This document shows positions 4,679 through 63,134 of a stretch of 64,000 nt of DNA, piece after piece. Below the pieces are notes generated by a model. The model searched no databases. It saw only the letters and a list, made by a program, of their open reading frames with translations, and was not told the origin of the DNA. This DNA is from Aeromicrobium duanguangcaii (GTDB taxonomy: Bacteria; Actinomycetota; Actinomycetes; Propionibacteriales; Nocardioidaceae). The position numbers and the translations under genes were made by a program. The stretch is from assembly GCF_024508295.1 (NCBI RefSeq), contig NZ_CP101990.1, forward strand, positions 1,612,001 to 1,676,000, read 5' to 3'. The stretch's first letter is position 1, and each line of letters begins with the position of its first letter.

Positions 4679-4684
4679 GGCGCG

Positions 4685-4690: not shown

Positions 4691-4715
4691 CGGCGTTCGT
4701 GACCACCCGGCCCGT

Positions 4716-4973: not shown

Positions 4974-5056
4974 GTGACCACTGTAGAACGCGTGTTCGAT
5001 GAAAGGTCGAGAGACTCTGTGGCCACGCGAACGGAAGGAAGCGCGGCGCCTCCCAC

Positions 5057-5090
5057 TAGGTGTCTACGTAGACGCCTACGTAGACACCTA
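5057..5090. repeat. 34-bp perfect inverted repeat upstream of the surface-protein gene
   Basis: Arms of 14 bp (5057-5070 and 5077-5090, TAGGTGTCTACGTA and its complement) flank a 6-bp centre. Each arm contains TCTACGTAGA-like symmetry, so the site reads as two overlapping palindromes. It lies about 75 bp before the GTG of the thioester protein, a plausible operator for a dimeric repressor. An RNA hairpin in the leader is the alternative. Confidence 0.6.
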
Positions 5091-5165
5091 CCGTGAGTCG
5101 GGTCACACTCTAGTAACGGATCCCTCGCCAGGGATCTGGGCGAAGACGAATCGGGGGGTTCGATT

Positions 5166-8294: not shown

Positions 8295-8312
8295 CACGCG
8301 GCGGAGGCTCTT

Positions 8313-8343
8313 CCCCTCACCGGGTCACCGACCCGGTGAGGGG
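8313..8343 (+). terminator. Hairpin terminator after the adhesin gene
   Basis: A perfect 13-bp stem (CCCCTCACCGGGT and its complement) around a 5-nt loop, starting 18 bp after the stop codon. There is no T tract, as is usual in high-GC actinobacteria. Confidence 0.8.
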
Positions 8344-8471
8344 AGAATCCTGCTCGACGATGTGATCGATGCCGCAGGGGAGACGAGTACTAGCCGAGAT
8401 CAGGGCGTTTGTCCCGGGTTTTCAGAAATTGGGCATTGCCGAGCCCTCCACCTGTGCACCAGACTCCCATT

Positions 8472-10424
8472 ATGAGAGAGACGAACGCGGCGTGGCGCGC
8501 ACGCAGATCCCGGACAGCACTCGGTGCATTCCTTGCCCTCACCCTCGCGAGCTCGGGCCTGCTCGCGACCACGGCGAGCACAGCTTCGGCAGCGCCTGCG
8601 CCGAAGCCGTACGTGCTGAAGGGGGGCGAGTCATCCCCGGTGTACAGCTATGCCGACGCGATCCGCGAGACGGTGTGGGTCATCGCGCCCGACTTCGACG
8701 GTGACGGCGAGAAGGACCGGATCGCGGTCGACATCGTTCGTCCGCGCGAGCTCGACGCCAAGCGGGTCAAGGTGCCGGTCGTGATGGATGCGAGCCCGTA
8801 CTACACGAGCGTCGGACGCGGCAACGAGTCGGAGTTCAAGTCGTTCGACGCCGAGGGCAACCTCATCAAGTTCCCGCTGTTCTACGACAACTACTTCGTG
8901 CCGCGCGGCTACGCCTATGTCGCACCCGACATCGCAGGCACCTCGCGGTCGACCGGTTGCGTCGACACCGGCGGCAAGTCCGACGTCGGCTCGGCCAAGG
9001 CCGTCGTGCAGTGGCTCAACGGCAACGCCGAGGCGGTCGACGCCGACGGCAAGGCCGTCAAGGCCGGCTGGAGCAACGGCAAGACCGGCATGATCGGCAA
9101 GAGCTATGACGGCACCCTGGCCAACGGCGTCGCCGCCACCGGCGTGAAGGGGCTGGAGACCATCGTGCCGATCAGCGCGATCAGCTCCTGGTACGACTAC
9201 AGCCGTTCGCAGGGTCTTCCGTACAGCTGGAACTACTCCAGCGGCCTCGCCAGCCGCGTCGCCGGCAACCGCACGCAGCCCCAAGACTGCTCGGCGACGC
9301 TCGCGCGGATGGACGCCGAGGACGCCGACGAGACCGGTGAGCACAACGCATTCTGGGACGAGCGCAACTACCGTGACTCCGCCCAGCTCAATGCCAAGAA
9401 GGTCAAGGCGAGCGTCTTCATCTATCACGGTCTGCAGGACACCAACGTCAAGACGCGTCACTTCTCCGACTGGTGGAAGGACCTGGGCAAGGCCGGGGTC
9501 ACTCGCAAGCTGTGGTTGAGTCGGGTCGGGCACGTCGATCCGTTCGATGTCGACCGTGAGGAGTGGGTCCGCACGTTGCACCGGTGGTTCGATCACGAGC
9601 TGATGGACATCAAGAACACGATCATGCTGGAGCCGCCGGTCAAGGTGGAGACCAAGCCCAATCGCTGGGTCAACTCCTACTCGTGGCCCACGCGGCTCAC
9701 GACGACGACCCTGCGCCCCCAGGCCGACGGCTATTTGGCCCGGTCGATCGAGAAGTCGAAGCAGAGCTGGGTGAACTCGCCCAGCCAGCGTGAGAACGTC
9801 GCCGTCACCGAGGGCGACAACCCCAACCGCCTCCTGTACGCGACCTCTCCGCTGCTCGCCGACGCCCGGATGAGCGGTTCGATGGTTGCGAAGCTGCGGG
9901 TGACGTCCGAGGTGCCGACCGGGCAGGTGGGCGTGATGCTCGTCGACTACGGCGAGGGTGATCGCGTCCTTGCCACGGGCGACGGTGCGTCGACGACGAC
10001 CACTGAGACCTGCGTCGGGCAATCGACCGCGAACGATGACGCGTGCTACTTCACGATGACCCGCAACGTGGGCACGACGCCGCTCCAGGTCCTGGGGCGC
10101 GGTTGGGCCCGGCTCGACGGCGCTGGAACGCACGACGTGACGGTGACGCTGGACCCCGACGACGCCGTCGTCGCCAAGGGGCACCGACTCGGAGTCGTCG
10201 TGGTGGGCGCGGCGAACGGCCGTGTGCGCAACGTCGACACGACGTCGTCGACGTACACGCTGGATCTCGCGAAGTCGCAGTTCGTGCTGCCGGGCCTGGC
10301 CCTGCCGCACCCCACGTGGGCATCGAACTGGAACTGGCTGCCCAAGCGCAGTGAGATCGTGCCAGGAACCCTTCCCGGCACCCGGAAGAACGTGCTTCCG
10401 GTCCTGATGGACACGCCTCGCTGA
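8472..10424 (+). CDS. Secreted X-Pro dipeptidyl-peptidase-like S15 hydrolase
   Basis: A 650-residue extracellular serine hydrolase of the CocE/PepX (S15) family. ATG at 8472 gives a proper signal peptide (basic RARRSR, hydrophobic core, cleavage near ASA-AP); an upstream TTG adds 21 unlikely residues. The alpha/beta-hydrolase domain carries the triad Ser211 (GKSYDG), Asp323 (GLQDTN) and His354 (VGHVDPF). A C-terminal PepX_C jelly-roll follows from about residue 435. It should release N-terminal X-Pro dipeptides or hydrolyse related acyl substrates outside the cell. It is a single-gene unit closed by a strong terminator. Confidence 0.88.
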   Translation: MRETNAAWRARRSRTALGAFLALTLASSGLLATTASTASAAPAPKPYVLKGGESSPVYSYADAIRETVWVIAPDFDGDGEKDRIAVDIVRPRELDAKRVKVPVVMDASPYYTSVGRGNESEFKSFDAEGNLIKFPLFYDNYFVPRGYAYVAPDIAGTSRSTGCVDTGGKSDVGSAKAVVQWLNGNAEAVDADGKAVKAGWSNGKTGMIGKSYDGTLANGVAATGVKGLETIVPISAISSWYDYSRSQGLPYSWNYSSGLASRVAGNRTQPQDCSATLARMDAEDADETGEHNAFWDERNYRDSAQLNAKKVKASVFIYHGLQDTNVKTRHFSDWWKDLGKAGVTRKLWLSRVGHVDPFDVDREEWVRTLHRWFDHELMDIKNTIMLEPPVKVETKPNRWVNSYSWPTRLTTTTLRPQADGYLARSIEKSKQSWVNSPSQRENVAVTEGDNPNRLLYATSPLLADARMSGSMVAKLRVTSEVPTGQVGVMLVDYGEGDRVLATGDGASTTTTETCVGQSTANDDACYFTMTRNVGTTPLQVLGRGWARLDGAGTHDVTVTLDPDDAVVAKGHRLGVVVVGAANGRVRNVDTTSSTYTLDLAKSQFVLPGLALPHPTWASNWNWLPKRSEIVPGTLPGTRKNVLPVLMDTPR

Positions 10425-10448
10425 CGCGATCGTGTTGAGGTGATCTCC

Positions 10449-10480
10449 AGGGCGGGCACGGCTTCGGCCGTGCCCGCCCT
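10449..10480 (+). terminator. Strong terminator after the S15 peptidase gene
   Basis: A perfect 14-bp GC-rich stem with a TTCG tetraloop, 24 bp after the stop. Confidence 0.85.
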
Positions 10481-10691
10481 CACGTGCCCGCAGGCCCGTC
10501 AGACGTCAGATCCTGAGGAATCTCGTGAAACACAGGAGGCCACATGTCGACCGCCTGACCGGCCCCGCCTCGGAGACAGGACGTCTGCGCACCCAGCAGT
10601 GCTGCTGCAGGTCGGGTCCCCGGACTGCGACAACCCGCGGGGGAGGGACGTCAACCACCCTGATGAGTCATCTGGGGCAGTCAGCTCACCG

Positions 10692-10913
10692 CTAACTGAC
10701 ATAATGTGCATTATCGGACAAACTGCCAGACCGGGAAATCAGTGGGTCGGCGACCTGCTGGAACCCGATCTGTCCGCCCGGGCCGGTGACCCGGGCCCGG
10801 GCCGACGTGCCGTGCGCCTCGCCCTGAGTGATGACGGCGTAGAACCGTGCCAGCGCGAACGCGTCGGGTGCGTTCAGCGTGATGTCACTCAGGGTGATCG
10901 CTTCAGGCGTCAC
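10692..10913 (-). pseudogene. Truncated VOC (glyoxalase-like) gene ending at dif
   Basis: The ORF opens as a VOC/glyoxalase protein (ITLNAPDAFALARFYAVI, then RARVTGPGGQIGFQQVADP) but only about 55 residues match the family. The last codons read through the dif site and stop, so the second half of the single-domain fold (metal ligands and closing strands) is missing, and I see no continuation in any frame nearby. Its ATG overlaps the upstream SRPBCC stop by 4 bp, showing it was the third gene of an arsR-SRPBCC-VOC operon. The break lies about 20-30 bp from dif. Confidence 0.75.
10694..10721 (-). other. Chromosomal dif site (XerC/XerD)
   Basis: A 28-bp site. Read on the minus strand it has an 11-bp arm TTGTCCGATAA, a 6-bp centre TGCACA and an 11-bp arm TTATGTCAGTT. 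The core CCGATAAT-NN-ACATTATGTCA agrees with the actinobacterial dif consensus as I remember it at about 24 of 26 positions, and the XerD arm begins TTATGT as in E. coli dif. Function: dimer resolution at the replication terminus, and a target for Xer-exploiting elements. It should occur once per chromosome. Confidence 0.85.
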
Positions 10914-11431
10914 GACACGTCGGCGTTCTTGAAGGACGGCGCCAGCTCGGTCCAGCGGCGTCGCCAGTGCGGCGACGGCTCCGTGGCGGACCAGCCGTCA
11001 GGATGCGCCGTCCCATCGAGCTCGAGCGACCGACCCAGATCCTCGAGGTGGGCCTGCCAGCCCGCCCCGTGAATGTGGAGCTCGTCCAGCGGCAGGCCGC
11101 GTTCCTCGATGACCAATCGCGTCCGCGCGCCCTCGGCGGTCAGCCACGCCTCGATTTCGCACTCCCGGTCGGTGCCGGCGAAGGTGGTGACGAGCAGATG
11201 GTGCGGCCGCTCGCAGGCGTCGATCCTGCCCGGACCGCTCCAGGTGCTGGTGAAGGTCATCTCGATGGTGCTGCCGACCCGCAGGTCGCCGGACACCTGG
11301 GCGATCCACCGTGCGAGCCGCTCGGGCGTCGTGCAGGCGTCCCACAGGTCCTCGATGTCGGTGTCGTACACGTCCTCGACCCGCACCGCGCCTGTCGTGG
11401 CGTCCAGTGCGCGCATCGTCGTCGTGGTCAT
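10910..11431 (-). CDS. SRPBCC (START/AHSA1-like) domain protein
   Basis: A 173-residue single-domain SRPBCC protein. ATG at 11431 is chosen because it overlaps the arsR stop as ATGA. The body shows the AHSA1-like pattern VYDTDIEDLWDACTTPERLARW early, GSTIEMTF in the middle and a C-terminal helix with GAGWQAHLEDLG. This family forms a hydrophobic ligand cavity. Many actinobacterial ArsR-SRPBCC pairs exist, where the ArsR protein represses the operon; the ligand is unknown. Confidence 0.85.
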   Translation of the reverse strand: MTTTTMRALDATTGAVRVEDVYDTDIEDLWDACTTPERLARWIAQVSGDLRVGSTIEMTFTSTWSGPGRIDACERPHHLLVTTFAGTDRECEIEAWLTAEGARTRLVIEERGLPLDELHIHGAGWQAHLEDLGRSLELDGTAHPDGWSATEPSPHWRRRWTELAPSFKNADVS

Positions 11432-52472: not shown

Positions 52473-53138
52473 TCATTCGTGACCGAGCCCGGCCAGTCGC
52501 CCCACGTGGTCTGCCGTCAGGCCGGCCAAGGTCGGGACGACCGCCCGGAACGGTGCCTCGGGGACGGCGACGGCGTGCGGCACCGCGATCACGAAGCAAC
52601 CCGCGGCGTTGGCCGACGCGGCACCGGTTCGCGAGTCCTCGATGGCGATGCAGTCCTCGGCCCGCACCCCCAGCAGCTCGGCGGCCTTCAGGTACGGCTC
52701 GGGGTGCGGCTTGCCCTGCGTCACCGAGTCGCCCGTCACCACCGCCTCGAACCCGAGCGCGTCGACGACCGGTTCGGCGATGTAGCCGTACGACATCGTG
52801 ACGAGGGCCTGCGGAACGCCCGCAGCGCGGTACTCCTCGATCAGCTCGCGGGCGCCGGGACGCCATTCCTGTTGCCGGCGCAGCGCGGTGGCCACGCGAC
52901 CGCCCAGGAAGTCGACGATGTCCTCCGGCGTCATGTCACCGCCGATCCGCTGCTTGATGTAGCGCGCCGCCACCAGCAGGTCGCTGCCGACCAGGTGCAG
53001 CGAGTCCTCCTCGGTCCAGACCGCGCCGTGGTCCTCGGCGAGCTGGTGCTCCCCCGCGATCCACATCGGCTCGGTGTCCACGAGCGTGCCGTCCATGTCC
53101 CACAGGACGGCTTTCGGGTGCTTCCAGGGCGCATTCAT
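52473..53138 (-). CDS. HAD-superfamily phosphatase (beta-phosphoglucomutase-like)
   Basis: A 221-residue HAD hydrolase: AVLWDMDGTLVDTEPMW (motif I), VTMSYGYIAEPVV (motif II), GKPHPEPYLKAAELL (motif III) and CIAIEDSRTGAASA (motif IV), with a helical cap between I and II. The start ATG 53138 fits family N-termini; an in-frame ATG at 53180 is possible. It removes phosphate from a small substrate. It marks the core-genome side of the island boundary. Confidence 0.87.
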   Translation of the reverse strand: MNAPWKHPKAVLWDMDGTLVDTEPMWIAGEHQLAEDHGAVWTEEDSLHLVGSDLLVAARYIKQRIGGDMTPEDIVDFLGGRVATALRRQQEWRPGARELIEEYRAAGVPQALVTMSYGYIAEPVVDALGFEAVVTGDSVTQGKPHPEPYLKAAELLGVRAEDCIAIEDSRTGAASANAAGCFVIAVPHAVAVPEAPFRAVVPTLAGLTADHVGRLAGLGHE

Positions 53139-53197
53139 GCTCTGACCTGCAGTTTCTCGAGAATTGGCGGCACTCACCATGGCTTCAAAACCGTCCG

Positions 53198-53221
53198 ATG
53201 CGACTATCCATGCGACTATCC
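53198..53221. repeat. Tandem 12-bp direct repeat near the island edge
   Basis: ATGCGACTATCC occurs twice head to tail, between the HAD gene and the excisionase remnant. It could be a recombinase-binding iteron or part of an attachment region. The spacer further right also has a GGTGC-TTTCA-GCACC hairpin (53279-53293) and a 12-bp palindrome at 53231-53242. Confidence 0.55.
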
Positions 53222-53325
53222 ACCCTAGATCGCGGGCCCGCGGCATAGAAACCCGGCGTGGCGCACGTCCCGCGTCCAGGTGCTTTCAGCACCGCAGGAG
53301 GGGTCCCGGCGCGCACCTGTCGGGT

Positions 53326-53573
53326 ATGACGAACCACACCATCGCAGCCCCCATCCGCACCTGGGCCGAACTCCTGAACACCGACCGCGAGGTGCTGAAC
53401 CGCACCGAGGTCGCCACCCTGCTCGAGCCGACCCGCGCACCATCGACCGCGCCATCGAGGACGGCACGATCACCGTCGTCCGGCTCGGCCGACGCCACCT
53501 CATCCCCCGACGCCCTTTCCTGGCCGCCTTCGGCGTTGACGCAGCGAGCAGACCATCATCGGAGGCATCCTGA
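53326..53573 (+). pseudogene. Frameshifted excisionase-like HTH gene
   Basis: The first frame reads VLNRTEVATLLE and then derails. The next frame continues DPRTIDRAIEDGTITVVRL and RRHLIPRRPFLAAFG. Together they make an 82-residue HTH_17/excisionase-type protein. A single-base deletion next to GAG at 53425-53427 accounts for the break: restoring one G gives LLEADPRTIDRAI. Its stop overlaps the integrase start (TGATG), the usual xis-int layout of actinobacterial integrative elements. Confidence 0.8.
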
Positions 53574-54007
53574 TGAGCCCTCGGGCGAAGCCGGTCGCCG
53601 CACGCGCTCGGCGCGAGAAGGGCACCGGCTCCGTCACGAAGTACCAGACCAAGTCCGGGCTACGGTGGCGCTACGAGATCAACGTCCCCGTCGAGCCCGG
53701 CCACCCCGAAGCCGGTAGCCGCAGCCAGACCTGTGCAGGCTTTGCCAGCTACGAGGAGGCCGACGAGGCCATCACCTTGGTGCGCGCCGACGTGATCCGC
53801 AAGATCCCGCAGGCCGTCGGACGCGACACCTTCACCCCATATGCGCGACGGTGGCTCGACGGGCACTCCATCGGCAACGGCACCTGCAGTTCACTCGCGC
53901 GCCGTTCAAGAAGACGACCCAACCTCATCACCAGCGATGAACGTGCCGCAGTGATCGCGTCCAACCTGTCGGTCTTGCCGATTCCACGAACCCGGACAGC
54001 CAGCTGA
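53573..54007 (+). pseudogene. Truncated tyrosine integrase
   Basis: The first 105 residues match the N-terminal arm/SAM-like part of actinobacterial phage-type tyrosine recombinases (KGTGSVTKYQTKSGLRWRYE; QTCAGFASYEEADEAITLVR; FTPYARRWLDGHSIGNGT). After 'GNGT' the homology ends abruptly and the catalytic domain (R...H-x-x-R...Y) is missing. The remaining tail looks like unrelated sequence. It is a scar of an integrated element. Confidence 0.8.
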
Positions 54008-54237: not shown

Positions 54238-54387
54238 TCACTTCCAGCGACCGGCATGCTCGCTGCAGACGCTTCCGGTGTTGTTGCACTTGCTGCATGT
54301 GAGTTTGCCGAACGCGCCGCTCGCTCGTCCCCCGTTGCAAGCTTGGCAGTCGTTCACGGGTCGGTGACACTTCTTGCAGTTGCTCAT
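54238..54387 (-). CDS. Small Cys-rich (zinc-ribbon-like) protein, 49 aa
   Basis: Starts MSNCKKCHRPVNDCQACNGG and has three further pairs or ligands: CSKCN and a final CSEHAGRWK. Four CxxC/CxxH-type elements in 49 residues predict one or two structural zinc sites, as in DnaJ-like cysteine-rich modules. ATG 54387 has AAGGGA 7 bp upstream. It is divergent from the island operon and lies 240 bp from it. A short accessory gene of this type with the coiled-coil/AAA operon may be functionally linked. That is inference. Confidence 0.65.
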   Translation of the reverse strand: MSNCKKCHRPVNDCQACNGGRASGAFGKLTCSKCNNTGSVCSEHAGRWK

Positions 54388-54626: not shown

Positions 54627-55754
54627 TTGAGCGGACCCAAGGGGTACGACGTCGAGCTCGAACTTCAACTGCAGCGCGAACGAGAGCTCGCTGCCCAACG
54701 GCGGTCGTGGGCGGCAACGTACGAGTCGTTGGTCGAACTCCGAAAGGAGATCCGACGCGATGCCGTCGACTTCGATGTCACCGTTGCGTTGTCTCGCGCA
54801 GGGTTCGAATCCGCCCGGTGCGAAAATCCTTCGAATGCCGATCTCGACGAGCTTGCGCGCTTCCAGGCCGCCGTCGAGGTTGTCGTCTCGGGTGCACGTC
54901 GTGCGCGCACCGACGCACACGCACTTCGCACACGCTCCGTCTTGGCGGGACGGATCAACTCACCCGCCAGCGAGGCCAACCCATCAACGCGGGACGTCAT
55001 CCCGCCACTGGCGGAACGTCTGGCCGAGTTGCTCGCCGAAGTCCCTGACACAGTGCGCGGTCCCCTGACCCGTCAGGTGGCGGAGCTCGGCGCGACTGAT
55101 GCCGACGGTTCGAGCACGTCGTGGCTCACACTCACCCGCACAATCACCGACGCAGTCCGAGTATCGCGCGACGAGGAGCTACGTGCGAGGCTGGCTCGCG
55201 AGTTGGAGTCCGTCATCGCGCGGATCGATGGGCCGACAGCGGACGACCTGCGGGCGCAACTCGCCGCAGCAGCCGGTTCCACCGACGTCGAACGGCTACG
55301 TCCTCGATTGTTGGCGGCGGTTGCCGCTGCCGAACGTGAATCAGAACGTGCTCACGTCGTGCGTTCGGCCATCGAAGTCTGGCGCGAACTGGGCTATGTC
55401 GCCGACGCGGATCTCGTGGATCTGACACTCGCAGGCGGATCGGGTTTGCTCACGCGCGACGAGTGGCCCGATCACGCTCTGCAGATCCGCCTGGCCAGCG
55501 ATGGCCTGGGCCTCGGAACGAATGTCGTGGCACTCACCGAGACTGACCCGCGACGTGACCTGGAGGTGGAGGAGGAAAGCTGTCGCGACATCCGATCCTT
55601 CATGCGCGGTCTCGACGCTCGCGGGCTTTCGACGAAGCTCTCGCGACACAAGGCCGCCGGCGAGCTCCCCGTCCAGCGACTGCGGCACCGGGACAGTTCG
55701 CCCACCACAGCGATCAAGGCAGAGCAGGACGCGGCGCGCCGTGAGCAGAACTGA
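54627..55754 (+). CDS. Coiled-coil protein of unknown function (MSGPKGY family)
   Basis: A 375-residue soluble protein starting at TTG after GGGAGG. The MSGPKGYDVE opening resembles a set of bacterial hypothetical proteins that begin MSGPKGY. Residues about 10-35 and 185-255 are charged, heptad-like helices; the last 100 residues are more globular (DLEVEEESCRDIRSF). No enzyme motif is visible. It leads a seven-gene unit and its end abuts or overlaps the AAA+ gene. A structural adaptor or the substrate/target-recognition part of the system is the most reasonable guess. Confidence 0.75.
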   Translation: MSGPKGYDVELELQLQRERELAAQRRSWAATYESLVELRKEIRRDAVDFDVTVALSRAGFESARCENPSNADLDELARFQAAVEVVVSGARRARTDAHALRTRSVLAGRINSPASEANPSTRDVIPPLAERLAELLAEVPDTVRGPLTRQVAELGATDADGSSTSWLTLTRTITDAVRVSRDEELRARLARELESVIARIDGPTADDLRAQLAAAAGSTDVERLRPRLLAAVAAAERESERAHVVRSAIEVWRELGYVADADLVDLTLAGGSGLLTRDEWPDHALQIRLASDGLGLGTNVVALTETDPRRDLEVEEESCRDIRSFMRGLDARGLSTKLSRHKAAGELPVQRLRHRDSSPTTAIKAEQDAARREQN

Positions 55755-55758
55755 TCCG

Positions 55759-57600
55759 ATGACACCGCGTGCGCTGGCGAGCGAGTTCCCGCATTGGCTG
55801 CGCGACGTCGATGCTCACCTTCCCGTGGCGGCCCAGTTTGTCCTGCACGGGAACATCCGCGATCGTCACCTCATCCCGGTCGACAGCTCCTTTCGATTCC
55901 TGGAAACGCCGCAGGCGCTCGCCGCACTTCTCGAGCTGAGCAACTATGCCGCCGTCATCACCTACGACCCGGTCGGCGGCTTGGGGCTCCAACCCGACAC
56001 TGCAGAGTCCCGTTCCGCTCTCGCCCAGTTGGAACGAGGGCAGCAGTGGATCGAGCGACTTGGTCGCCCACTGAGCTTCGAGGCGCTCGGCGAACTCATC
56101 ACCGCCGTCCAACCGGCGCAACCACGGGCCCGCGTTGCCTTGGCCATCGACTACGTCTCGCAGTTCTCACCGGCGGGAGCCGCCACGAGCGAGGGCCTGC
56201 ACGGGGTGTTCCGTACCGCGTTGCATCGAATGCACCGGACTCGCCAGACCTACGTGGCCGACATGGAACGGACCTCGCTCTACAACCCGGTCTTCTGGAT
56301 CGTTGATCGACCGTCAGACCTGCCCGGGTGGCTGGTGGGAGCCACCGACGGCAGCCACCCGGTGCCGATACCCCTTCCTGACCTCGATGCCCGCGCTCGT
56401 GCTGCGCGGCAACTTGCCGCCGGATTGAGCCAACGCGGAATGGGCGACTTCACCGACGACCAGCGCCGTGAGTTCGTCTCGCAGACCGACGGCATGACGC
56501 TGCGCGCGATGTTCGAGATCATCCAGCTCGCGAATGACCAGCGGTTGTCGACTGCCGAGTTCGAGAGCGCGATCCGCATGTACCGGGTGGGCCTGATCGA
56601 CAATCCGTGGAACCAAGCAGCACTGAGACAGAACATCAGGGATGCCGGAACACTCATGTCGTCACGTGTCCTGGGCCAACCGGGCGCGATCCGCCGTTCC
56701 CTCGATATCTTGATGCGATCCACCACCGGACTGACATCCGCGCACACCGGAGGTCGGTCGACCGGACCGAGAGGCGTGCTGTTCCTCGCCGGCCCCACCG
56801 GCGTCGGCAAGACTGAACTGGCCAAGATCCTCACTGAAGTGATCTTCGGCAACCCGAACGCCTACATCCGTTTCGACATGAGCGAGTTCTCGAACACGGG
56901 GAGCGACCTGCGACTAATGGGCGCCCCGCCCGGCTACATCGGCCACGAGGCGGGCGGAGAACTGACGAACGCCGTCCGGCAGAAGCCGTTCAGCCTAGTT
57001 CTGTTCGACGAGATCGAGAAGGCCCACCCGCCGATCATGGACAAGTTCCTCCAGATCCTCAGCGACGGAAGACTCACCGACGGGTCAGGTGCAACGGTGC
57101 ACTTCTCCGAGACAATCATCGTGTTTACGTCGAACAAGGGAATGGCCGATCCTCTACCGAACGGGGACTTGCCGACGGCGAAGTTGGGCTTCCCCGAGTT
57201 CGACGCGCACGTGCGTCAGTCGGTGTCAAGACACTTCGCCGAAGAGCTCGGCCGACCCGAACTGCTCAACCGCCTCGGCGACAACATCGTGGTTTTCGAC
57301 TTCATCCGCACTGATGTCGCGACCGAATTGCTGACGAACTTCGTTGCGAACACCTTGGCCCGCGTCCGTGAATTGCACGCGATCGACGTGACGCTGGCTG
57401 AGACGGCTCACAAGACCCTGTGGCGTGAATGCTGCTCAGATCTTTCGATGGGTGGCCGCGGCATCGGACAACGAGTCGAGTCCGTCCTGACCAACCCCCT
57501 CGCCCGCGCAGTCTTCCTCCACGACGACTCCGACAGTCCGATCCACATCCGCAATTTCATCCGGGAGGAAGGTGGCGCATGGGCGTTGGACATCGGCTGA
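55759..57600 (+). CDS. Clp/Hsp100-like AAA+ protein with degenerate first module
   Basis: A 613-residue protein (ATG 55759; GTG 55741 is an alternative overlapping the previous gene). Residues about 1-260 look like an AAA-type fold without a Walker A (FVLHGNIRDRHLI; ARVALAIDYVSQFS; PVFWIVDRPSDLP). Residues about 300-610 are a ClpB-D2-like module: Walker A GPTGVGKT with Lys351, pore-loop Tyr393 (PPGYIGHE), Walker B Asp417-Glu418, sensor-1 Asn459 and sensor-2 Arg567. There is no Clp N-domain or visible ClpP-docking loop. It should thread and remodel proteins, not feed ClpP. The radical-SAM start lies inside its 3' end. Confidence 0.85.
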   Translation: MTPRALASEFPHWLRDVDAHLPVAAQFVLHGNIRDRHLIPVDSSFRFLETPQALAALLELSNYAAVITYDPVGGLGLQPDTAESRSALAQLERGQQWIERLGRPLSFEALGELITAVQPAQPRARVALAIDYVSQFSPAGAATSEGLHGVFRTALHRMHRTRQTYVADMERTSLYNPVFWIVDRPSDLPGWLVGATDGSHPVPIPLPDLDARARAARQLAAGLSQRGMGDFTDDQRREFVSQTDGMTLRAMFEIIQLANDQRLSTAEFESAIRMYRVGLIDNPWNQAALRQNIRDAGTLMSSRVLGQPGAIRRSLDILMRSTTGLTSAHTGGRSTGPRGVLFLAGPTGVGKTELAKILTEVIFGNPNAYIRFDMSEFSNTGSDLRLMGAPPGYIGHEAGGELTNAVRQKPFSLVLFDEIEKAHPPIMDKFLQILSDGRLTDGSGATVHFSETIIVFTSNKGMADPLPNGDLPTAKLGFPEFDAHVRQSVSRHFAEELGRPELLNRLGDNIVVFDFIRTDVATELLTNFVANTLARVRELHAIDVTLAETAHKTLWRECCSDLSMGGRGIGQRVESVLTNPLARAVFLHDDSDSPIHIRNFIREEGGAWALDIG

Positions 57601-58223
57601 AAATCAACCGTATCGCTGCCCCGGTCACGTCTTTAGGGCCCGGTCGACGGCTCGGCCTCTGGGTCCAGGGTTGCACGATCGGATGCGCCGGATGCGCCTC
57701 CACAGACACGTGGGAAGCGGCAGGTGGAGTCGTCCGTCCTGTCGAGCAGCTTGTCCCCGAACTGGCAGATCGGCTCGACCAGCACGAGCTCTCCGGGCTG
57801 ACGATCTCCGGCGGCGAGCCGCTCCAGCAGGCGACATCACTGACGGCCTTGTTGACTCGCATGCGACGGATTGGCGCACTGGAAAGCCGCGACGTGCTGC
57901 TGTTCACCGGCTACGCATGGTCTCGTGCTCAACGCATCGGGCCGCGAGTCCTCGACTTGGTCGATGCCGTCGTCAGCGGCCCCTATGTCGCCTCGCGTCC
58001 CGGGGACGGAAACCTGCTGGCCAGCGGCAACCAGGAGATGACGCTGCTCACGGACTTGGCGCGTACGCGATTCGCACGCCCGGACACTCGACGCATCCAA
58101 GTCGGTCAATCCAGCGGCAATCTCGTGATGGCGGGACTGCCGGACGCAGGAGACCTTGATCGATTCCGCCTGCTCATGGCTAAGCGAGGCATCGAGTTCG
58201 GGTCGGCGTCATGGGAGGCATGA
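57579..58223 (+). CDS. Small radical-SAM protein (NrdG-like 4Fe-4S)
   Basis: A 214-residue radical S-adenosylmethionine protein. Cys32-x3-Cys36-x2-Cys39 (QGCTIGCAGCAS) binds the 4Fe-4S cluster and SGGEPLQQ contacts SAM. Size and motifs resemble glycyl-radical-enzyme activases such as NrdG, but there is no glycyl radical enzyme or ribonucleotide reductase nearby. GGAGG lies about 10 bp before ATG 57579 and the gene overlaps the AAA+ gene by 22 bp. It may install a radical-derived change on a protein of the operon. Confidence 0.87.
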   Translation: MGVGHRLKINRIAAPVTSLGPGRRLGLWVQGCTIGCAGCASTDTWEAAGGVVRPVEQLVPELADRLDQHELSGLTISGGEPLQQATSLTALLTRMRRIGALESRDVLLFTGYAWSRAQRIGPRVLDLVDAVVSGPYVASRPGDGNLLASGNQEMTLLTDLARTRFARPDTRRIQVGQSSGNLVMAGLPDAGDLDRFRLLMAKRGIEFGSASWEA

Positions 58224-58807
58224 GCGGTGGATTCCGCTGCGGCGGATGCCAGCAGGTGTATCCAGCAGACCCCGGCGTGTGTGGCATGTGTTCAGGGAGC
58301 TTCTTCGAACAGATCGTTCCAACGAGCCCCGAACTCGGCGAGGAGGCCAGCGCGCCGACCGGCGCCACCACCACTGTCGAGCACATGCTCTGCACCCGTT
58401 CCGACTGTGCGTTGCCGATCCCGACGGGACAGTCCCACTGTGACTACTGTGGGGAGCCCGCCCCGGCCGCGCAACCACACCCCAGGCTGACAGAGCCCAC
58501 CCCCACCCCCACTCTCGTCGCTCCCGACGGCACCACCATTGAACTGCGCGAGGGCGTTCCCGTAGTGCTCGGGCGCAATCCCCAGCACAGTCCGTGGGCA
58601 CGGCTCGCCGAGAGCAACCTCAAGGTCTCGGGACGGCACGCCGAGGTGGTGCTCCACCGCGGCGTGCTTCATGTGCGCGATCTTGGTTCCACGAACGGCA
58701 CCTGGGTTCGCGGCATCAGGATCGACGGGGCCGCCTCCGTGCCAGTCGAGGACGGCATCGTCATCGGTCTCAGCCGCCATTTGGAACTGGAAGTGAGAAC
58801 ACCGTGA
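58211..58807 (+). CDS. Zinc-ribbon / FHA-domain protein
   Basis: A 198-residue cytoplasmic adaptor. Two zinc ribbons (Cys10/13/24/27, then CTRSDC ... CDYC near 61-85) precede a proline-rich linker and a C-terminal FHA domain (about 105-190) with the conserved GRN, SGRH and GSTNGTW motifs that bind phosphothreonine. ATG 58220 overlapping the radical-SAM stop as ATGA is an alternative start. It probably reads phosphorylation by the kinase encoded next. Confidence 0.86.
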   Translation: MGGMSGGFRCGGCQQVYPADPGVCGMCSGSFFEQIVPTSPELGEEASAPTGATTTVEHMLCTRSDCALPIPTGQSHCDYCGEPAPAAQPHPRLTEPTPTPTLVAPDGTTIELREGVPVVLGRNPQHSPWARLAESNLKVSGRHAEVVLHRGVLHVRDLGSTNGTWVRGIRIDGAASVPVEDGIVIGLSRHLELEVRTP

Positions 58808-61410
58808 GCGACCATCACCCCACCGAATTCGACTCTCTTCCCGGCGGCCACGAGCCCACCGAACTCGATGGGATGTCCGACACTCCGACCAAGTCGATCC
58901 GCCGCAGCCTGCCGTCGACACTGGTCGACGAGTACGAGATCGAGTCACTCATCGGCCGCGGCAACCAAGCCGAAGTTTACCGCTGTCGACACACGCCCAG
59001 CGGCGACGTGGTCGCGATCAAGCTGTACACCACGCCGAACCACCGGCTCAATGATGACGTCATCAGACTCATCGAAGCAGCCAGTGACGAGCACGTGATC
59101 CGCACGCGATTCGGGCAACACGGCGACGAGCAATGGGAGATCCAGGAGCATGCCGCTTTCGGAACTCTGACCACTCTCCCCGAACACCCCATGGTCACGG
59201 TCAACGAGGAGTTCTACGCGCAGATCGTGCGCGAGTTGACCGCAGCGGTTCAGCATTCGCACTCCGCAGGCCTGATCCACCGCGACGTCAAACCGAGCAA
59301 CGTGCTCGTCCGCGGGCTCGATCCCATCGACCTGGTGCTCGCAGACTTCGGCCTCGCCCGCGAACTGATGGCGGGGGCGGAAGCGGGATCGTCGTCGCAC
59401 GGACGCGGCTACGGCTCACCCGAAGCCCTGCAGGGAGTACATGGATTTCCTAGCGACTGGTGGGCCGTCGGCATCACCCTGCTCGAGGTACGACAGGGAC
59501 GATATCCCTTCGCTGACGCGGAAGGCCGACGCTGGACCGAGGCACGCATCTTCGCCCATCTGATGAGCAACGACGTTGACGTGTCGGGTCTCGACGGACG
59601 GTGGCAGATTCTGATCCGGGGCCTGCTGACTAAAGATCCCCAGCAACGGTGGGGTGGAGATCAGGTCCAACGCTGGCTGGCCGGAGAATCTCCTGCCGTC
59701 CACCGCGGAACCGTCGACACGACACCGACGAAATGGCAACTGGTGGCGCCCAACTGGGGCACCTTCGACAGTCCCGAGGCAGTCGGCCACGGACTCATCG
59801 ACCAGTGGCAGGCGGCCGGTGCCTTCCTTAGTGGCAGGGGTAGGACCGCAACCCGAAATGCACTGGCGCGCACGGCTCATGCTGAGGCGGTGCACGCGCT
59901 GTTCGACCTGCACGATCGGGGCAGCCTGAGTACGAATGCCTTGTTGTTCGATCTCTCCCGGCAGTTGGCTCCCGGACGCGAACCCACCTTCCGTGGCCAC
60001 GAATTGAGCAGCGAGAACCTCATCTCGGTGGGCTCGCGGGCGGCGAACGGCGACGCCGACGCCGCTGATTGGATTCGGCGTCTGCGCGAGGATCACATCC
60101 TTCAGTTGGCAATGGGACACCCTGAGCACCGGAAGTTCGTCGAGACCGACGCGATCGTGACCCAGTGGTGGACCGAGTTGGAGCAGTTGTCGGCATCACT
60201 GCTGGGGGCCCAGGAATCGTGGCTGCGTGATCAGCAAACCGGGGACGAGACCCCAGCCCTCCGGAGTGTCACCGCAGTTGTCACCGATTCACGCGATCGG
60301 ATCGAAGGCGAACTTCTCTCGGCAGCGTTGGACTACCACCACGCGGCGGAACTGCACGCGAGATCGCGATCGACCGAGATCAACCGCGACACGGCCGGTT
60401 GGCTCGACCAACTCCGCTCCCGGCGACAATCAGGATCCCATCCGCCGTCGGACCTGCTCCTGATCCTCCTAGCGCCTGCGGCCGCAACCGACGGCCGATC
60501 CGTCGCCTCGGCCATCCGGGCACAGCGAAATCGCGAACGCTCCGAGCGCAGTGCGACCATCCGGGCAAACCGCGCCGGCCAAGCTCGTGCGGGGTTGTGG
60601 CCGAAGGTCTGGCTAGGCGTTCTCTACAGCGTCGGCGGTTTCGTCGCGTTCGTCGTCTCGACATCCGCAGGCGGTCCTGAGGAGATTCAGGCTGACTTGC
60701 TGAGGACTGCCGCTCAAGCGGTCGCTATTGGTCTGGCTGTCGGAATCGGTGCCGCCGTCGCGGCCGACGCTCTGGTCGGTCGACCATCGACGGTTGCGCT
60801 CGCCGTGCTCTTCCCGCTCGGTTTCTGGCTCGGCTGGGAGGGACTCTCCGAGTATGGATCGTTGTATCGGTGGGGTGACCCGCTCATCGGTGCCGGAACG
60901 GGATACCTAGTCGCGGCCGTCGCGACCTGGGCCATCAGACCCTGGAGCTGGTGGCCCACGGCCGCGGCCGAGGTCACGGGGCGCACCGCGCAGTGGGGCG
61001 AACGGCTGTCGCTGTGCGCCACCGTCGTGCTGCCCCTCAGCGTGTTCACGATGCTGTGGGATACCTCGCCAGAGACACGCATGGCATTGGGTGTTGTCGT
61101 GGCCGAACTACAGGCCGACGCCTGGCCATGGCTGGGGTCGGTCTACGACGTCTTCAACGAGTACGACCACTTCTTCGATGACCGCGGGGTCTGGTGGGCG
61201 ATCCCGTCGGGGCTCGCCCTGTTCACGCTCCTGGCGTTCGAGAACACTCCGAGCCGGACGTGGCTGGAGCTCGCTCTGCTCACCGTCACCTTTGTGGCAG
61301 CTCTCGTGGCGGTCGTGTTCTTGTGGCCGCTCTACCTCACAGGCGTGATCATGATCTCCGGCGTTGTGCTTGTGCTGGGCATCGGTGCCTTCGTCCTGTC
61401 GAACTACTGA
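58804..61410 (+). CDS. Membrane Ser/Thr protein kinase
   Basis: An 868-residue kinase starting at GTG, overlapping the FHA stop (GTGA). The first 40 residues are rich in Asp, Glu and Thr-Pro, with TELDG-type threonines that could be FHA targets. The kinase domain (about 43-300) has Lys73 (VAIKLY), catalytic Asp161 (HRDVKPSN) and DFG Asp181, all intact. A helical linker of about 300 residues follows, then about eight membrane helices from residue 600 on. The topology differs from PknB-type kinases: the sensor part is polytopic membrane, without PASTA repeats. Confidence 0.88.
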   Translation: MSDHHPTEFDSLPGGHEPTELDGMSDTPTKSIRRSLPSTLVDEYEIESLIGRGNQAEVYRCRHTPSGDVVAIKLYTTPNHRLNDDVIRLIEAASDEHVIRTRFGQHGDEQWEIQEHAAFGTLTTLPEHPMVTVNEEFYAQIVRELTAAVQHSHSAGLIHRDVKPSNVLVRGLDPIDLVLADFGLARELMAGAEAGSSSHGRGYGSPEALQGVHGFPSDWWAVGITLLEVRQGRYPFADAEGRRWTEARIFAHLMSNDVDVSGLDGRWQILIRGLLTKDPQQRWGGDQVQRWLAGESPAVHRGTVDTTPTKWQLVAPNWGTFDSPEAVGHGLIDQWQAAGAFLSGRGRTATRNALARTAHAEAVHALFDLHDRGSLSTNALLFDLSRQLAPGREPTFRGHELSSENLISVGSRAANGDADAADWIRRLREDHILQLAMGHPEHRKFVETDAIVTQWWTELEQLSASLLGAQESWLRDQQTGDETPALRSVTAVVTDSRDRIEGELLSAALDYHHAAELHARSRSTEINRDTAGWLDQLRSRRQSGSHPPSDLLLILLAPAAATDGRSVASAIRAQRNRERSERSATIRANRAGQARAGLWPKVWLGVLYSVGGFVAFVVSTSAGGPEEIQADLLRTAAQAVAIGLAVGIGAAVAADALVGRPSTVALAVLFPLGFWLGWEGLSEYGSLYRWGDPLIGAGTGYLVAAVATWAIRPWSWWPTAAAEVTGRTAQWGERLSLCATVVLPLSVFTMLWDTSPETRMALGVVVAELQADAWPWLGSVYDVFNEYDHFFDDRGVWWAIPSGLALFTLLAFENTPSRTWLELALLTVTFVAALVAVVFLWPLYLTGVIMISGVVLVLGIGAFVLSNY

Positions 61411-61418
61411 GGATGGCG

Positions 61419-62141
61419 ATGAAGCTTCGGATCGGCGCCGCGACCCACCTGGGGTTGGTGCGCACGAGTCACCAGGACTGCCTCCACATCGACGGGTGGA
61501 CCGCCTCATCGTCCGGAAGTCGGCTGCGGCACCACCTTGACGGTCACGGTGTCGTTGCCGTGATCGACGGCATGGGCGGGCACGCAGGTGGTGAGGTGGC
61601 GGCACGCATTACATCTGCCCATCTCGCGGACTGCCGCCTGGCGAACGCCACCAGCGCCGAAGACGTCGATCAAATTCTGCAACAGGTCTCCGATCACGTG
61701 CGTGGAGTCGGCGCCATCACCGAGGGCCACGCGAACATGGGGGCCACCATCGCCGGCTTCGTGGTCACGCCCGACGACCTGCTGCTGTTCAACGTGGGCG
61801 ACTGTTCGATTCTGCGCATCACGGATGGATTCGTCGGACAGCTCGCCGTGATCGACAGGACCGACGTGGACGCGTCGGGGCGCACTCGGCTTACTCAATG
61901 TCTCGGCGGCGCAACTCAGGCAACGGTCGTCGACGCCCACGCTGAACGATTTGCACCTCGCGAAGCGGACGTACTCGTCCTTTGTTCGGACGGCCTGACG
62001 GACGTCGTCGACGATGCCACCATCGGCAGGATCGTCGCCCACTCGAAGGACGTGGTCCAGATTTCGGACGAACTCGTCAGCGCGGCGTGCCGGGCGGGCG
62101 CGCCTGACAACGTCAGCATCGTCGCGGTCCGGCTGGGCTGA
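61419..62141 (+). CDS. PP2C-type protein phosphatase
   Basis: A 240-residue metal-dependent Ser/Thr phosphatase. Motifs RTSHQD, VIDGMGGHAGG, FNVGDCSI, LCSDGLTDVVDD and GAPDNVSIV give all metal-binding aspartates. ATG 61419 with GAGGA 6 bp upstream is preferred over ATG 61413. It should reverse the action of the adjacent kinase. The gap to the kinase gene is 8 bp, and to the next gene 4 bp. Confidence 0.9.
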   Translation: MKLRIGAATHLGLVRTSHQDCLHIDGWTASSSGSRLRHHLDGHGVVAVIDGMGGHAGGEVAARITSAHLADCRLANATSAEDVDQILQQVSDHVRGVGAITEGHANMGATIAGFVVTPDDLLLFNVGDCSILRITDGFVGQLAVIDRTDVDASGRTRLTQCLGGATQATVVDAHAERFAPREADVLVLCSDGLTDVVDDATIGRIVAHSKDVVQISDELVSAACRAGAPDNVSIVAVRLG

Positions 62142-62145
62142 GGAA

Positions 62146-62919
62146 ATGCAACAACTGCTCGGTGGCGTGCTTGTGGGCACCGCCCTGGTCTGGGTCTACT
62201 CGTTGCTCATCCCCCGGTCGGCACTGCGCGATCGACGATTCAAGTCAGGCCGTAAGCCCATGACTTCGTGGGGCTCCCCCGAGGATGCCGCCGACTGGTC
62301 GGCGCCGGTCATCGCGCTGCTCGCACTCGCATCGCTACTGCCCACGGACGGAACCGGCGCGGGGACGTCGGGCGCCATACTCGGTGCAGCATGTGCGCTG
62401 ATGCCGGGGGCGCTTCGCCCGATCCGCGACGCCGGCCTGAGCATCCTCGGCGCCTTCGCAGCGGTGGCCACCGTCGTCTCGGTTCTGAGCCCCGCGAACT
62501 GTGGCGGTGCGACCGCTGAGCGCGCCGTGGTGTTCTTCACGTCACTTGGCCTGTTTGCCGCGGCAACGCTGGTGTCGGTGGTGCGTCGCGGGATCAACCC
62601 GACAGTTGGCTTGGAGATGTTCGTGATCGCCGAACTGGCGGCCTTCCTCACGGCTCCGCTGGGGCTCGACCTCGTGGGAGGCCAACGGCTTGTCGGCAAC
62701 GTGGTCGCGATCGCCCTCGGGCTACTGGTCGGCCTTGCACCAACCTTCCTCATGGGGGTACTCGCCCTCGCCCTCGCCGCAGCCTCGCTATGGGGCTCGG
62801 TCCTGACGTCCGGCTCGTGCGGAGACCTCGGCAGCGGGCACCAGATGACGACGCTCATCTGTGGCGCCGCGGCGTTCCTGATCGTCCGTGGCATCACTAC
62901 GAGGTTCCAGGGTCGGTGA
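62146..62919 (+). CDS. Polytopic membrane protein of unknown function
   Basis: A 257-residue protein with about eight hydrophobic helices and little soluble sequence. No recognised family. It starts 4 bp after the phosphatase stop (GAGGA close before the ATG). It may be the membrane partner of the kinase. It is the last gene of the operon before the IS remnant. Confidence 0.72.
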   Translation: MQQLLGGVLVGTALVWVYSLLIPRSALRDRRFKSGRKPMTSWGSPEDAADWSAPVIALLALASLLPTDGTGAGTSGAILGAACALMPGALRPIRDAGLSILGAFAAVATVVSVLSPANCGGATAERAVVFFTSLGLFAAATLVSVVRRGINPTVGLEMFVIAELAAFLTAPLGLDLVGGQRLVGNVVAIALGLLVGLAPTFLMGVLALALAAASLWGSVLTSGSCGDLGSGHQMTTLICGAAAFLIVRGITTRFQGR

Positions 62920-62940
62920 CATCCTCGACGGCACAAGCCG

Positions 62941-63134
62941 CCAAGATTTCTGGTCGTCAATGCAGATCGAACTCCTCAACCGCAAGAAGGGGAAGACGCG
63001 CCTCGAACTGTCGAACGCGATCCCCGCATAGCATCGTAATCTTCCACAACCGACAACGCCGCCATTCTTCGTTGGCCTATCGCACATCCATCGAGCACGA
63101 AGTACTCTCCGAGAACAACCCCATCCCCGCCTGA
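62941..63134 (+). mobile_element. IS3-family transposase remnant
   Basis: Two frames together give the C-terminal end of an IS3-type OrfB transposase: DFWSSMQIELLNRKKGKTRL then ELSNAI, a stop, and in another frame IVIFHNRQRRHSSLAYRTS and IEHEVL to the end at 63134. A small deletion around 63025-63035 explains the frame change. The catalytic DDE part is missing. It marks the right edge of the island. Confidence 0.8.

Follow-up and report, generated by a model that had tools for sequence, protein, structure and literature searches.

Radical-SAM proteins often modify polypeptides, and PD-T4-6 consists of a single kinase gene. To our knowledge, Mokosh comprises neither an AAA protein nor a radical-SAM (rSAM) protein nor a counterpart of the protein called g1 below, the type VI secretion (T6SS) phospho-switch pathway has no place for a radical-SAM protein or for g1, and protein threading, radical-SAM chemistry and Ser/Thr phosphorylation are not known to be combined in one system. 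In the vWA–MoxR/VMAP ternary systems an AAA-type NTPase is coupled to variable partners (Kaur et al. 2020, PMC7159879), and the part of that paper used here places a radical-SAM protein in a variant with FtsH, and genes for kinases and PP2C in the vicinity of GAP1-N2 GTPases.

The locus described here lies in a 64,000-nucleotide stretch (the window) of the Aeromicrobium duanguangcaii contig NZ_CP101990.1. Judging from the sequence comparisons, it belongs to an undescribed system spread over many bacterial phyla, possibly a novel type of antiviral or stress-response machinery. The first-pass annotation had recognised no named system with this gene set, and Pfam, NCBIfam and PADLOC indeed match single domains at most; in the open-licence papers searched, no description of an AAA–rSAM–g1 system was found.

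Gene organization

The operon consists of seven open frames in the same direction (54627-62919, + strand), which follow each other with overlaps or tiny gaps (4, -22, -13, -4, 2 and 4 bases from g1 to g7), as had been noticed at first sight.

54627..55754, + strand: g1, coiled-coil protein, translated from a TTG start as MSGPKGYD
55759..57600, + strand: g2, Clp-type AAA+ protein; alternative GTG start at 55741
57579..58223, + strand: g3, NrdG/PFL-activase-like radical-SAM (rSAM) protein; CxxxCxxC intact
58211..58807, + strand: g4, protein with N-terminal CxxC pairs and a C-terminal FHA domain
58804..61410, + strand: g5, Ser/Thr kinase; catalytic motifs intact, membrane-like segments at the C-terminus
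61413..62141, + strand: g6, PP2C-type phosphatase
62146..62919, + strand: g7, polytopic membrane protein, no family match

The identities first assigned to g2 to g6 agree with the Pfam matches, which were AAA_2 for g2 (E 3.1e-42, Clp-type second domain), Fer4_12 for g3 (E 1.4e-25), FHA for g4 (E 2.5e-11), Pkinase for g5 (E 1.1e-33) and PP2C_2 for g6 (E 1.2e-10; Stp1-like, below the cut-off of the Stp1 model). Zinc-ribbon models match the CxxC pairs of g4 only below cut-off, and no Pfam family scored above cut-off for g1 or g7. Regarding the proposed membrane location of the kinase and the polytopic nature of g7, hydropathy gives membrane-like stretches in both, five of them within the final third of g5 and six in g7; g7, an accessory part, clustered with no protein of the compared loci. 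No recognised nuclease or classical toxin was returned for the window's own branch by the Pfam, NCBIfam and PADLOC scans.

Recurrence of the gene set

The first domain of the AAA protein and the rSAM protein were used as baits, since the whole AAA protein matches nearly every genome (97 of 98 at E<=1e-30). In the rSAM-anchored survey, loci were gathered through the rSAM gene alone, the partners were scored by profiles, and the best 80 of at least 531 relatives were retained; all counts out of 80 below refer to these loci. The most frequent partners were the AAA protein (73/80), the kinase (67/80) and a g1-type protein (67/80 by profile, which may contain coiled-coil cross-hits; 58/80 by clustering alone), followed by FHA (40/80 with the FHA domain alone; the 56/80 of a broader profile are inflated, presumably by zinc-ribbon cross-hits) and PP2C (14/80). 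Conversely, the rSAM gene was present in all eight AAA-anchored loci. Judged by these profiles, the counts show that the conserved core is g1–AAA–rSAM–kinase and not the kinase/FHA/PP2C trio. Core-bearing loci were found in at least six phyla.

Recurrence of the AAA, rSAM, FHA, kinase and PP2C genes in unrelated islands had been named in advance as the test of a system. The full set of five is present in 11 of the 80 loci (L035, L036, L053, L073, L080, L090, L096, L100, L103, L106 and L107) and additionally in L033, L143 and L117 (a Clostridia plasmid), and the phyla concerned are Actinomycetota, Pseudomonadota, Ignavibacteriota and Bacillota. The recurring set therefore stands, with g1–AAA–rSAM–kinase in place of kinase/FHA/PP2C as its core. 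At the DNA level, one Providencia query yielded no relatives in E. coli. The phage collection gave 1193 matching records, none covering more than 80% of the query; among the 40 listed, most were annotated as class III RNR activases.

Genomic setting

The operon lies between two copies of a direct repeat of about 430 bp, which share 300 identical bases and each contain the beginning (5' end) of a HAD gene.

53080-53497, no strand assigned: left copy, overlapping the 5' end of the HAD gene
65963-66392, beyond the end of the window, no strand given: right copy

The G+C content drops from about 0.69 to about 0.64. In the nearest relative, the operon is absent from the 19.9-kb stretch compared, and the left flank is kept at 94-95% DNA identity. 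The direct repeats and the absence from the nearest relative show that the operon is a mobile island. The flanking marks first suggested were of another kind and were not recovered: Pfam is empty in the 'integrase scar' (53573-54004), and the 'IS remnant' (62790-63131) gives just one sub-threshold Pfam model.

Among 48 genomes of the same genus, the best match to g2 was no better than 4.5e-53, which is the level of the second domain of ClpB/ClpC, so that none of these genus-mates shows a full-length g2 homologue. When 396 genomes were sampled across the phylum, the system was found in at least 6, the query's own included; this is a lower bound, because only six candidates were scored per genome. 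The system is also carried on plasmids; one of them, from Rhizobium leguminosarum (L115), has a compact cassette of AAA, rSAM, a 2086-aa protein (a putative helicase–nuclease) and g1. The Actinomadura relatives and the Undibacterium relatives share flanking genes among themselves, which is more like a resident system than a mobile one.

Properties of the AAA and radical-SAM proteins

Motifs and fold identify the protein g2 as a Clp-type remodeler whose first domain is dead. Its fold aligned with ClpC/ClpB over about 640 columns (best E 7.1e-29), and its second AAA domain is intact (Walker A/B, aromatic pore loop GYIG). The first domain differs from that of ClpC/ClpB: it is degenerate (HGNxxD) and lacks Walker A. 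Among 76 full-length relatives, 75 have no Walker A motif ahead of the second P-loop. All Clp equivalog models scored g2 far below cut-off. The early description as a Clp-like AAA+ remodeler has to be corrected as to the first domain. Where ClpP partners have the ClpP-binding loop, the window's g2 has LGF (KLGFPEF), unlike its relatives: (L/I/V/M)GF before RPELLNR is absent in 65 of 66 readable loci, and in alignment A2 a single one of the 15 readable rows has it.

The rSAM protein carries the CxxxCxxC motif of the superfamily (C32, C36, C39), invariant in 24 of 24 aligned relatives. The nearest solved relative of g3 is PFL activase (E 1.2e-17), and the NrdG model TIGR02491 gives it 77.7 bits against a cut-off of 126.1. 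No match to an NrdD/glycyl-radical domain (PF13597, PF01228) was found in its own genome, whereas among 14 control genomes 6 match the former family and 3 the latter, which makes the locus a test case for the role of an NrdG-like rSAM protein in a genome without a detected glycyl-radical enzyme.

The variable protein g1

The g1 set comprised 61 members (58 clustered, plus L032, L033 and the window's own). Of these, 54 begin with Met-Ser-(Gly/Ser)-(Pro/Ser/Gly), and 58 carry the signature in a looser form; of the three rows without it, L045 and L092 start no more than 185 bases from the end of a contig, and L096 is a frame of 236 aa. These are the unselected figures; MSGPK is invariant in alignments A3 and A4 partly because MSGPK-type members were chosen for them. 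When every frame was read from its mechanical first start, x-Ser-(Gly/Ser/Ala/His) occurred in 36/61 g1 proteins versus 37/1224 other retained ORFs, and a permissive control, with the start freely chosen in the first 200 codons, found such a start in 97/1206 other ORFs. A Met-Ser start by itself proves little. Residue 3 is other than Gly in 19 of 56 members, hence a glycyl radical at that position cannot be general.

The identity to the Aeromicrobium counterparts was 45% for g1, 57% for the rSAM protein and 66% for the AAA protein, making g1 the fastest-diverging of the three. Its predicted model (pLDDT 87) has a long helical/coiled-coil middle and a C-terminal alpha/beta domain with an LGY...E..C motif; a fold search of the PDB gave 204 matches at E<=10 and none at E<=0.001. 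Kinship with DUF1257 (Ycf35) was considered and rejected (hhalign probability 1.2%, from a shallow 5-row profile). On the putative phage contig L034 and the plasmids L116 and L120, AAA–rSAM pairs stand beside DUF1257/DUF2997-type proteins, which also have a Met-Ser start.

Kinase and pseudokinase branch

The kinase g5 has the motifs HRDVKPSN and LADFG. For the comparison of catalytic residues, four of its positions served as reference columns: the Lys of VAIK, the Asp of HRD, the Asn and the Asp of DFG. HRD, DFG and a membrane-like stretch were found together in 43 of 77 kinase ORFs. In a clade of 15 of the 80 loci, from three phyla, a dead kinase is fused to a DUF4011–helicase–nuclease; in the tree of the AAA proteins, this helicase branch forms a single group with a support of 99. 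The two fusion proteins scanned by Pfam (L114 and L052) both contain AAA_11/12 and REase MTES_1575, the other 13 having been assigned by similarity to L114. Within the branch the catalytic Lys and the DFG Asp are kept in 0/15 each (three and one by gaps, respectively), and outside it all four residues are present in 55 of 60 kinases. The kinase of L104 is split over two frames of 296 and 1762 aa, of which the 296-aa part is probably the single TDNE row counted outside the helicase set.

The fusion is accompanied by AAA, rSAM and g1 (by profile) in 15/15 loci and by FHA and PP2C in 0/15. Outside the branch, 52 loci have a kinase; 19 of them lack FHA and 40 lack PP2C, so that missing FHA or PP2C is not peculiar to loci with a dead kinase. 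As far as aligned residues and gene content go, the counts show that the kinase residues covary with FHA/PP2C. The branch amounts to a natural experiment on the parts of the system: a dead, fused kinase without FHA/PP2C means that the signalling and effector halves can be distinguished. Regarding the flanks of the branch (62 proteins scanned, without L087 and none from L074), the 25 Pfam families listed of 61 were mostly transporters and metabolic enzymes, and the 25 PADLOC families listed each occurred in one member, a raw tally without a background rate.

Possible function

Our preferred reading, held tentatively, is that of a mobile conflict system powered by NTP and most likely directed against phages, in which g1 would be the trigger, rSAM and AAA would handle it, and the output would be linked to a kinase or pseudokinase. 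We infer the defence role mainly from the helicase–nuclease branch, and an action of the rSAM protein on g1 from proximity and motif only. In this scheme g1 would act as the sensor, the rSAM protein would mark its fixed N-terminal tail and the AAA motor would engage it, a handling which might either keep the complex armed but silent or license it. An insult to the fast-changing body of g1 would then alter how the motor handles it. In the window, the membrane kinase could relay this change, the FHA protein could read it and PP2C could reset it, the likely output being the membrane part of the kinase together with g7. In the helicase branch, the dead kinase would be a docking domain only, and the change would go straight to its own helicase–nuclease.

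A rather doubtful extension takes the Met-Ser-Gly/Ser start of g1 as a 'password': the rSAM protein would write a mark on Ser/Gly, the Clp-type motor would read or pull it, and mishandling would fire a kinase-gated or pseudokinase-docked effector. If true, a protein mark made by an rSAM enzyme would be an immune checkpoint, and the kinase would have become a dead docking domain upon effector fusion. The three chemistries would centre on g1, whose most fixed feature is its N-terminus. At least six phyla and some plasmids share this multi-gene machine, for which no name was found (73/80 loci, best 80 of at least 531).

Somewhat unlikely, and the strongest of the alternatives, is a controller of stress or envelope homeostasis with no anti-phage role, in which the membrane kinase senses the envelope, FHA and PP2C relay and reset the signal, and AAA and rSAM remodel g1 as a housekeeping scaffold. 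The 43 membrane-type kinase ORFs, the 55 of 60 catalytically complete kinases, the flanking genes shared among the Actinomadura and among the Undibacterium relatives and the mostly metabolic families beside the helicase branch (25 listed of 61) would all fit such a controller, whereas the patchy occurrence (0/48 genus-mates, at least 6/396 phylum genomes with the query's own included), the island bounded by direct repeats, the helicase–nuclease fusion and the carriage on plasmids argue against it.

It is improbable that g1 is itself the effector, a toxin-like or membrane-acting protein which the rSAM protein matures and the AAA motor releases while kinase and PP2C serve as a safety lock. Such a role would suit the rapid divergence of g1, the polypeptide modification common among radical-SAM proteins (textbook knowledge) and the hydrophobic stretch seen by eye soon after the start signature in several loci, e.g., MSGPTTVMITGDGLVILLAAAALRAA in L044 and MSSGGIVILPVAVVAAAG in L032; however, hydropathy finds no hydrophobic segment in the window's g1, the predicted structure consists of a long coiled coil plus an alpha/beta domain, and the helicase–nuclease branch keeps g1 in 15/15 loci (profile) although it already has an effector. 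A T6SS-like phospho-switch (PpkA/Fha/PppA with ClpV), the comparison drawn in the first-pass annotation, uses the classes of enzyme found here (a kinase with FHA and PP2C, and a Clp ATPase) but is very improbable, as the ClpV model TIGR03345 gave 175.6 bits versus 884.95, the TagH model TIGR03354 gave 16.9 versus 120.25, and no secretion family is found in the seven genes.

Comparison with known systems

Among the sets described in the part of PMC7159879 used here, the vWA–MoxR ones carry vWA with MoxR/FtsH or GAP1-N2 parts, and AAA(Clp)–rSAM–g1 is not among them; the eight proteins scanned at the window include no vWA, and bpMoxR reached 11 bits against 27. The best PADLOC match of g5 was Mad6 of MADS (E 5.6e-38), followed by PD-T4-6 (E 1e-30), in both cases over the kinase domain only; NCBIfam MAD6 gives g5 69.9 bits against a cut-off of 460, and the families of the operon include no methylase or other Mad partner. 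The sister branch resembles Mokosh in joining a kinase to an SF1 helicase (MkoA, E 8.9e-48), whereas in the window MkoA matches the kinase region of g5 only and the operon has no MkoA helicase. L114, the one fusion protein scanned with PADLOC, matched Hhe (E 6.9e-68) and, with its C-terminal part (residues 967-2103), the defence candidate PDC-S37 (E 1.6e-148). The likeness to PDC-S37 is confined to the sister branch and does not extend to the window; in that branch, the PDC-S37-like body is joined to a dead kinase and accompanied by AAA, rSAM and g1.

Operon organization and gene content

Seven plus-strand genes lie at 54627-62919 with intergenic gaps of 4, -22, -13, -4, 2 and 4 bases, in agreement with the first-pass annotation of seven co-directional genes with overlaps or tiny gaps. 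Its assignment of AAA, radical-SAM (rSAM), FHA, membrane kinase and PP2C proteins to the operon was borne out by family matches, and no family was assigned to g1 or g7 in a family model search:

54627-62919 (+), operon of the following seven genes
g1, coiled-coil protein
g2, Clp-type AAA protein (family match)
g3, NrdG-like radical-SAM protein (family match)
g4, FHA protein (family match)
g5, Ser/Thr kinase with membrane-like stretches at the C-terminus (family match, hydropathy)
g6, PP2C protein (family match)
g7, membrane protein

The g5 kinase has both the HRD and the DFG motif. Directly upstream of g1, on the opposite strand, lies a 49-aa Cys-rich ORF (54238-54387, -), for which the match to RtpA (anti-TRAP) was only sub-threshold.

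Genomic island and distribution in close relatives

Repeat finding revealed direct copies of approximately 430 bp (300 bases identical) at 53080-53497 and 65963-66392, and in a sequence search the first 54 residues of a neighbouring HAD phosphatase recurred approximately 13 kb downstream with 96% identity. Beside the operon, Pfam detected no fragment of an integrase or a transposase, so that the 'integrase scar' and 'IS remnant' previously thought to flank it were not recovered. A 540-aa protein without a Pfam match (63651-65270, -, partly beyond the window; 1152-2771 in L131, the stretch reaching right of the window) is also part of the island, inside the direct repeats. Two adjacent, similar, repetitive proteins of 1045 and 1149 aa (L131 4854-11422), immediately to its right, look secreted by eye.

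The closest relative (G018) shows 94-95% DNA identity in the left flank, and similarity continues at 86% up to window position 53884; the operon was unmatched within the 19.9 kb compared. Among 48 same-genus genomes the best match to g2 was no better than 4.5e-53, and the g2 ranges listed there represent the second-domain stretch common to ClpB and ClpC. Among 396 genomes sampled from the phylum (own genome included), the first AAA domain was found in at least three by a single-sequence search and in at least six by a 16-row profile; both counts are lower bounds, with six candidates scored per genome.

Conserved gene set

A 24-row rSAM alignment scanned against genome contigs yielded at least 584 stretches and at least 531 relatives, the best 80 of which were analysed. 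Together with the window, a putative phage contig and five genome loci anchored on AAA, these 80 made up 87 loci, which were clustered by ORF and then scored with the cluster-derived profiles. Among the best 80 of at least 531 rSAM relatives, profiles detected AAA in 73 loci, the kinase in 67, g1 in 67 (58 by clustering alone), the FHA domain in 40 (domain-only profile) and PP2C in 14. The check proposed in the first-pass annotation, recurrence of AAA, rSAM, FHA, kinase and PP2C together, was run and found the complete set in 11 of these best 80. Many misses are on contigs that are short or cut (e.g., L037, L050, L057, L062, L063, L067), and in other loci (e.g., L038) the set is absent. In the reverse test, rSAM was present in all eight loci found via AAA (G070, G093, G095, G171, G301, G239, G268, G371). 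Judged by their record titles, loci with AAA and rSAM span Actinomycetota, Pseudomonadota, Cyanobacteriota, Chlamydiota, Ignavibacteriota and Akkermansia (Verrucomicrobiota); rSAM, FHA and PP2C occur together on a Dictyoglomaceae contig. The comparison shows a core set, an N-terminal signature of g1 and covariation.

The g1 protein

Of the three proteins compared, g1 changes fastest, with 45% identity to an Aeromicrobium protein versus 57% for rSAM and 66% for AAA, whose counterparts have a longest contig of equal length (26322 bases), taken to be the one that carries the g1 match. When 5.8 billion proteins were searched with g1, eight of the 8000 best-sharing candidates matched at E<=0.001. 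Of the 61 clustered g1 members, 56 have an in-frame start with Ser-(Gly/Ser/Ala)-x or Ser-His-Gly directly after it (MSGP 36, MSSG 9, MSSS 7; MSAG, MSHG, MSGG and MSSA one each). Two further starts seen by eye (L040 MSGIS, L090 MSGPK) bring this loose signature to 58/61, and the strict form, Met-Ser-(Gly/Ser)-(Pro/Ser/Gly), occurs in 54/61 (L090 counted). The window's g1 uses a TTG start codon, giving MSGPKGYD. In a control using the mechanical first start, x-Ser-(Gly/Ser/Ala/His) was seen in 36/61 g1 versus 37/1224 other retained ORFs; in a permissive control with the start freely chosen in the first 200 codons, 97/1206 other ORFs showed the Ser-(Gly/Ser/Ala)-x or Ser-His-Gly pattern. Regarding the 25 loci with core genes and no clustered g1, seven have a signature-type start in a gene adjoining the core (MSSQR in L029 and L030, MSGSP in L031, MSGAK in L073, MSSVS in L097, MSSSA in L105, MSGPK in L107), and several others are cut at contig ends. 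Later AAA-anchored loci gave MSGPK (L143) and MSGEL (L144); no signature-type start was found in a third (L145).

In the g1 model (mean pLDDT 87), residues 5-11 form a short strand, accompanied by long helices and, at the C-terminus, by an alpha/beta domain in which L-G-Y and a Cys are conserved among selected relatives; Foldseek found no PDB match at E<=0.001.

The rSAM would mark g1, since it has the cluster motif, the small N-terminal tail is the most fixed stretch of g1, its neighbour, and a search of its own genome for a glycyl-radical domain and NrdD detected neither, which is in line with the earlier description of a radical-SAM protein without its usual target. Ser2 may be a more general candidate for the mark than a glycyl radical at residue 3, because that residue is Gly in 37/56 members and Ser in 17/56.

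The AAA motor

The g2 model (pLDDT 88) aligns with ClpC/ClpB over approximately 640 columns (best E 7.1e-29), which by fold makes its first 300 residues a Clp first AAA domain. Of 76 full-length relatives, 75 have no Walker A in this domain; the second domain of g2 has intact Walker A, GY pore loop and Walker B. The ClpP-type (L/I/V/M)GF loop was found in 1/66 loci and in 1/15 readable rows of the AAA alignment A2, that row being the window's own g2. Judged by these motifs, the family, the window's g2 aside, is likely a remodeler and not a protease feeder.

Two branches

In 15 of the best 80 of at least 531 rSAM relatives, the kinase gene runs on into a helicase-nuclease body. Pfam found DUF4011, AAA_11/AAA_12 and REase_MTES_1575 in both proteins of this helicase branch that were scanned (L114, L052), and the other 13 members were assigned via similarity to L114. 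Neither the catalytic Lys nor the DFG Asp is at its aligned place in any of the 15 branch rows (Lys gap in three, DFG gap in one); all four kinase residues are kept in 55/60 other kinase rows, and two ORFs yielded no domain. AAA and g1 are present in 15/15 branch members, FHA and PP2C in 0/15 each. The 15 form one group with a support of 99 in a tree built from 76 AAA proteins (quick method; long-branch warnings), covering Pseudomonadota, Chlamydiota and Cyanobacteriota. Lost kinase residues, absent reader and eraser, and the nuclease thus coincide in one lineage. Among the other loci with a kinase, FHA is missing in 19/52 and PP2C in 40/52, so the absence of both is not peculiar to the dead-kinase branch. 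In Providencia (L104 10657-16917) the pseudokinase-helicase gene is split over two frames.

Plasmids and a putative viral contig

An rSAM match was found in 18 plasmid records, six of which were examined. A Rhizobium plasmid (L115) carries AAA, rSAM and g1 together with a kinase-like protein of 2086 aa; a Clostridia plasmid (L117, 1-17658) carries all six families (kinases, MSGPK protein, FHA, rSAM, AAA, PP2C); a Calothrix plasmid (L119) carries rSAM, a protein annotated as AAA and a coiled-coil protein beginning MSGEK. The remaining three have rSAM with other AAA proteins. Upstream of the set in L117 lies a separate DUF4011 gene, perhaps an unfused form of the helicase-nuclease effector.

Cassettes of AAA, DUF1257 or an unnamed small protein, DUF2997 and rSAM occur on Paenibacillus (L116 9715-12582) and Rhodococcus (L120 4252-7989) plasmids; kinase, FHA and PP2C profiles had no match near the former cassette, and kinase and FHA match a few kb beyond the latter. 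On a Treponema plasmid (L118 2564-14165), rSAM and an AAA protein lie within a VgrG/baseplate-like contractile injection gene cluster. On the putative viral contig L034 (IMGVR_UViG_3300017963_000048, 4261-10957), an rSAM of this type is encoded with a classical AAA protein, whose first half contains an HGNxxD-like stretch, and with a protein that begins MSHI and contains DUF2997; an N6 methylase and a QueC-like protein are encoded nearby. Judging from this contig, the AAA-rSAM pair seems to be used in other settings too.

Possible role in defence

The nuclease-helicase branch, the plasmids, the island, the patchiness and the divergence of g1 would be consistent with defence. Counted against it are the helicase-branch flanks (62 proteins, 61 Pfam families), where the 25 listed of the 61 families are mostly transporters and metabolic enzymes. 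With a cut-off of E<=1e-15, 25 PADLOC families were listed for these flanks, and each was represented by a single member. At a guess, about six flanking proteins might be defence-like (Old/Gabija/AriA, a type II restriction enzyme, viperin-like, Mokosh, Zorya D, pAgo), a count with no background rate alongside.

Comparison with known systems

No description of this set was found in searches of open-licence PMC papers, PMC7159879 and PMC10853773 included, which accords with the first-pass statement that no named system is known to have it; subscription journals lie mostly outside this scope, so an earlier description is possible. The helicase-branch protein of L114 matches the PADLOC families PDC-S37 (1.6e-148) and Hhe (6.9e-68). 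By model alignment g2 resembles ClpC/ClpB in its two-domain fold, and its family differs from them in a first domain without Walker A.
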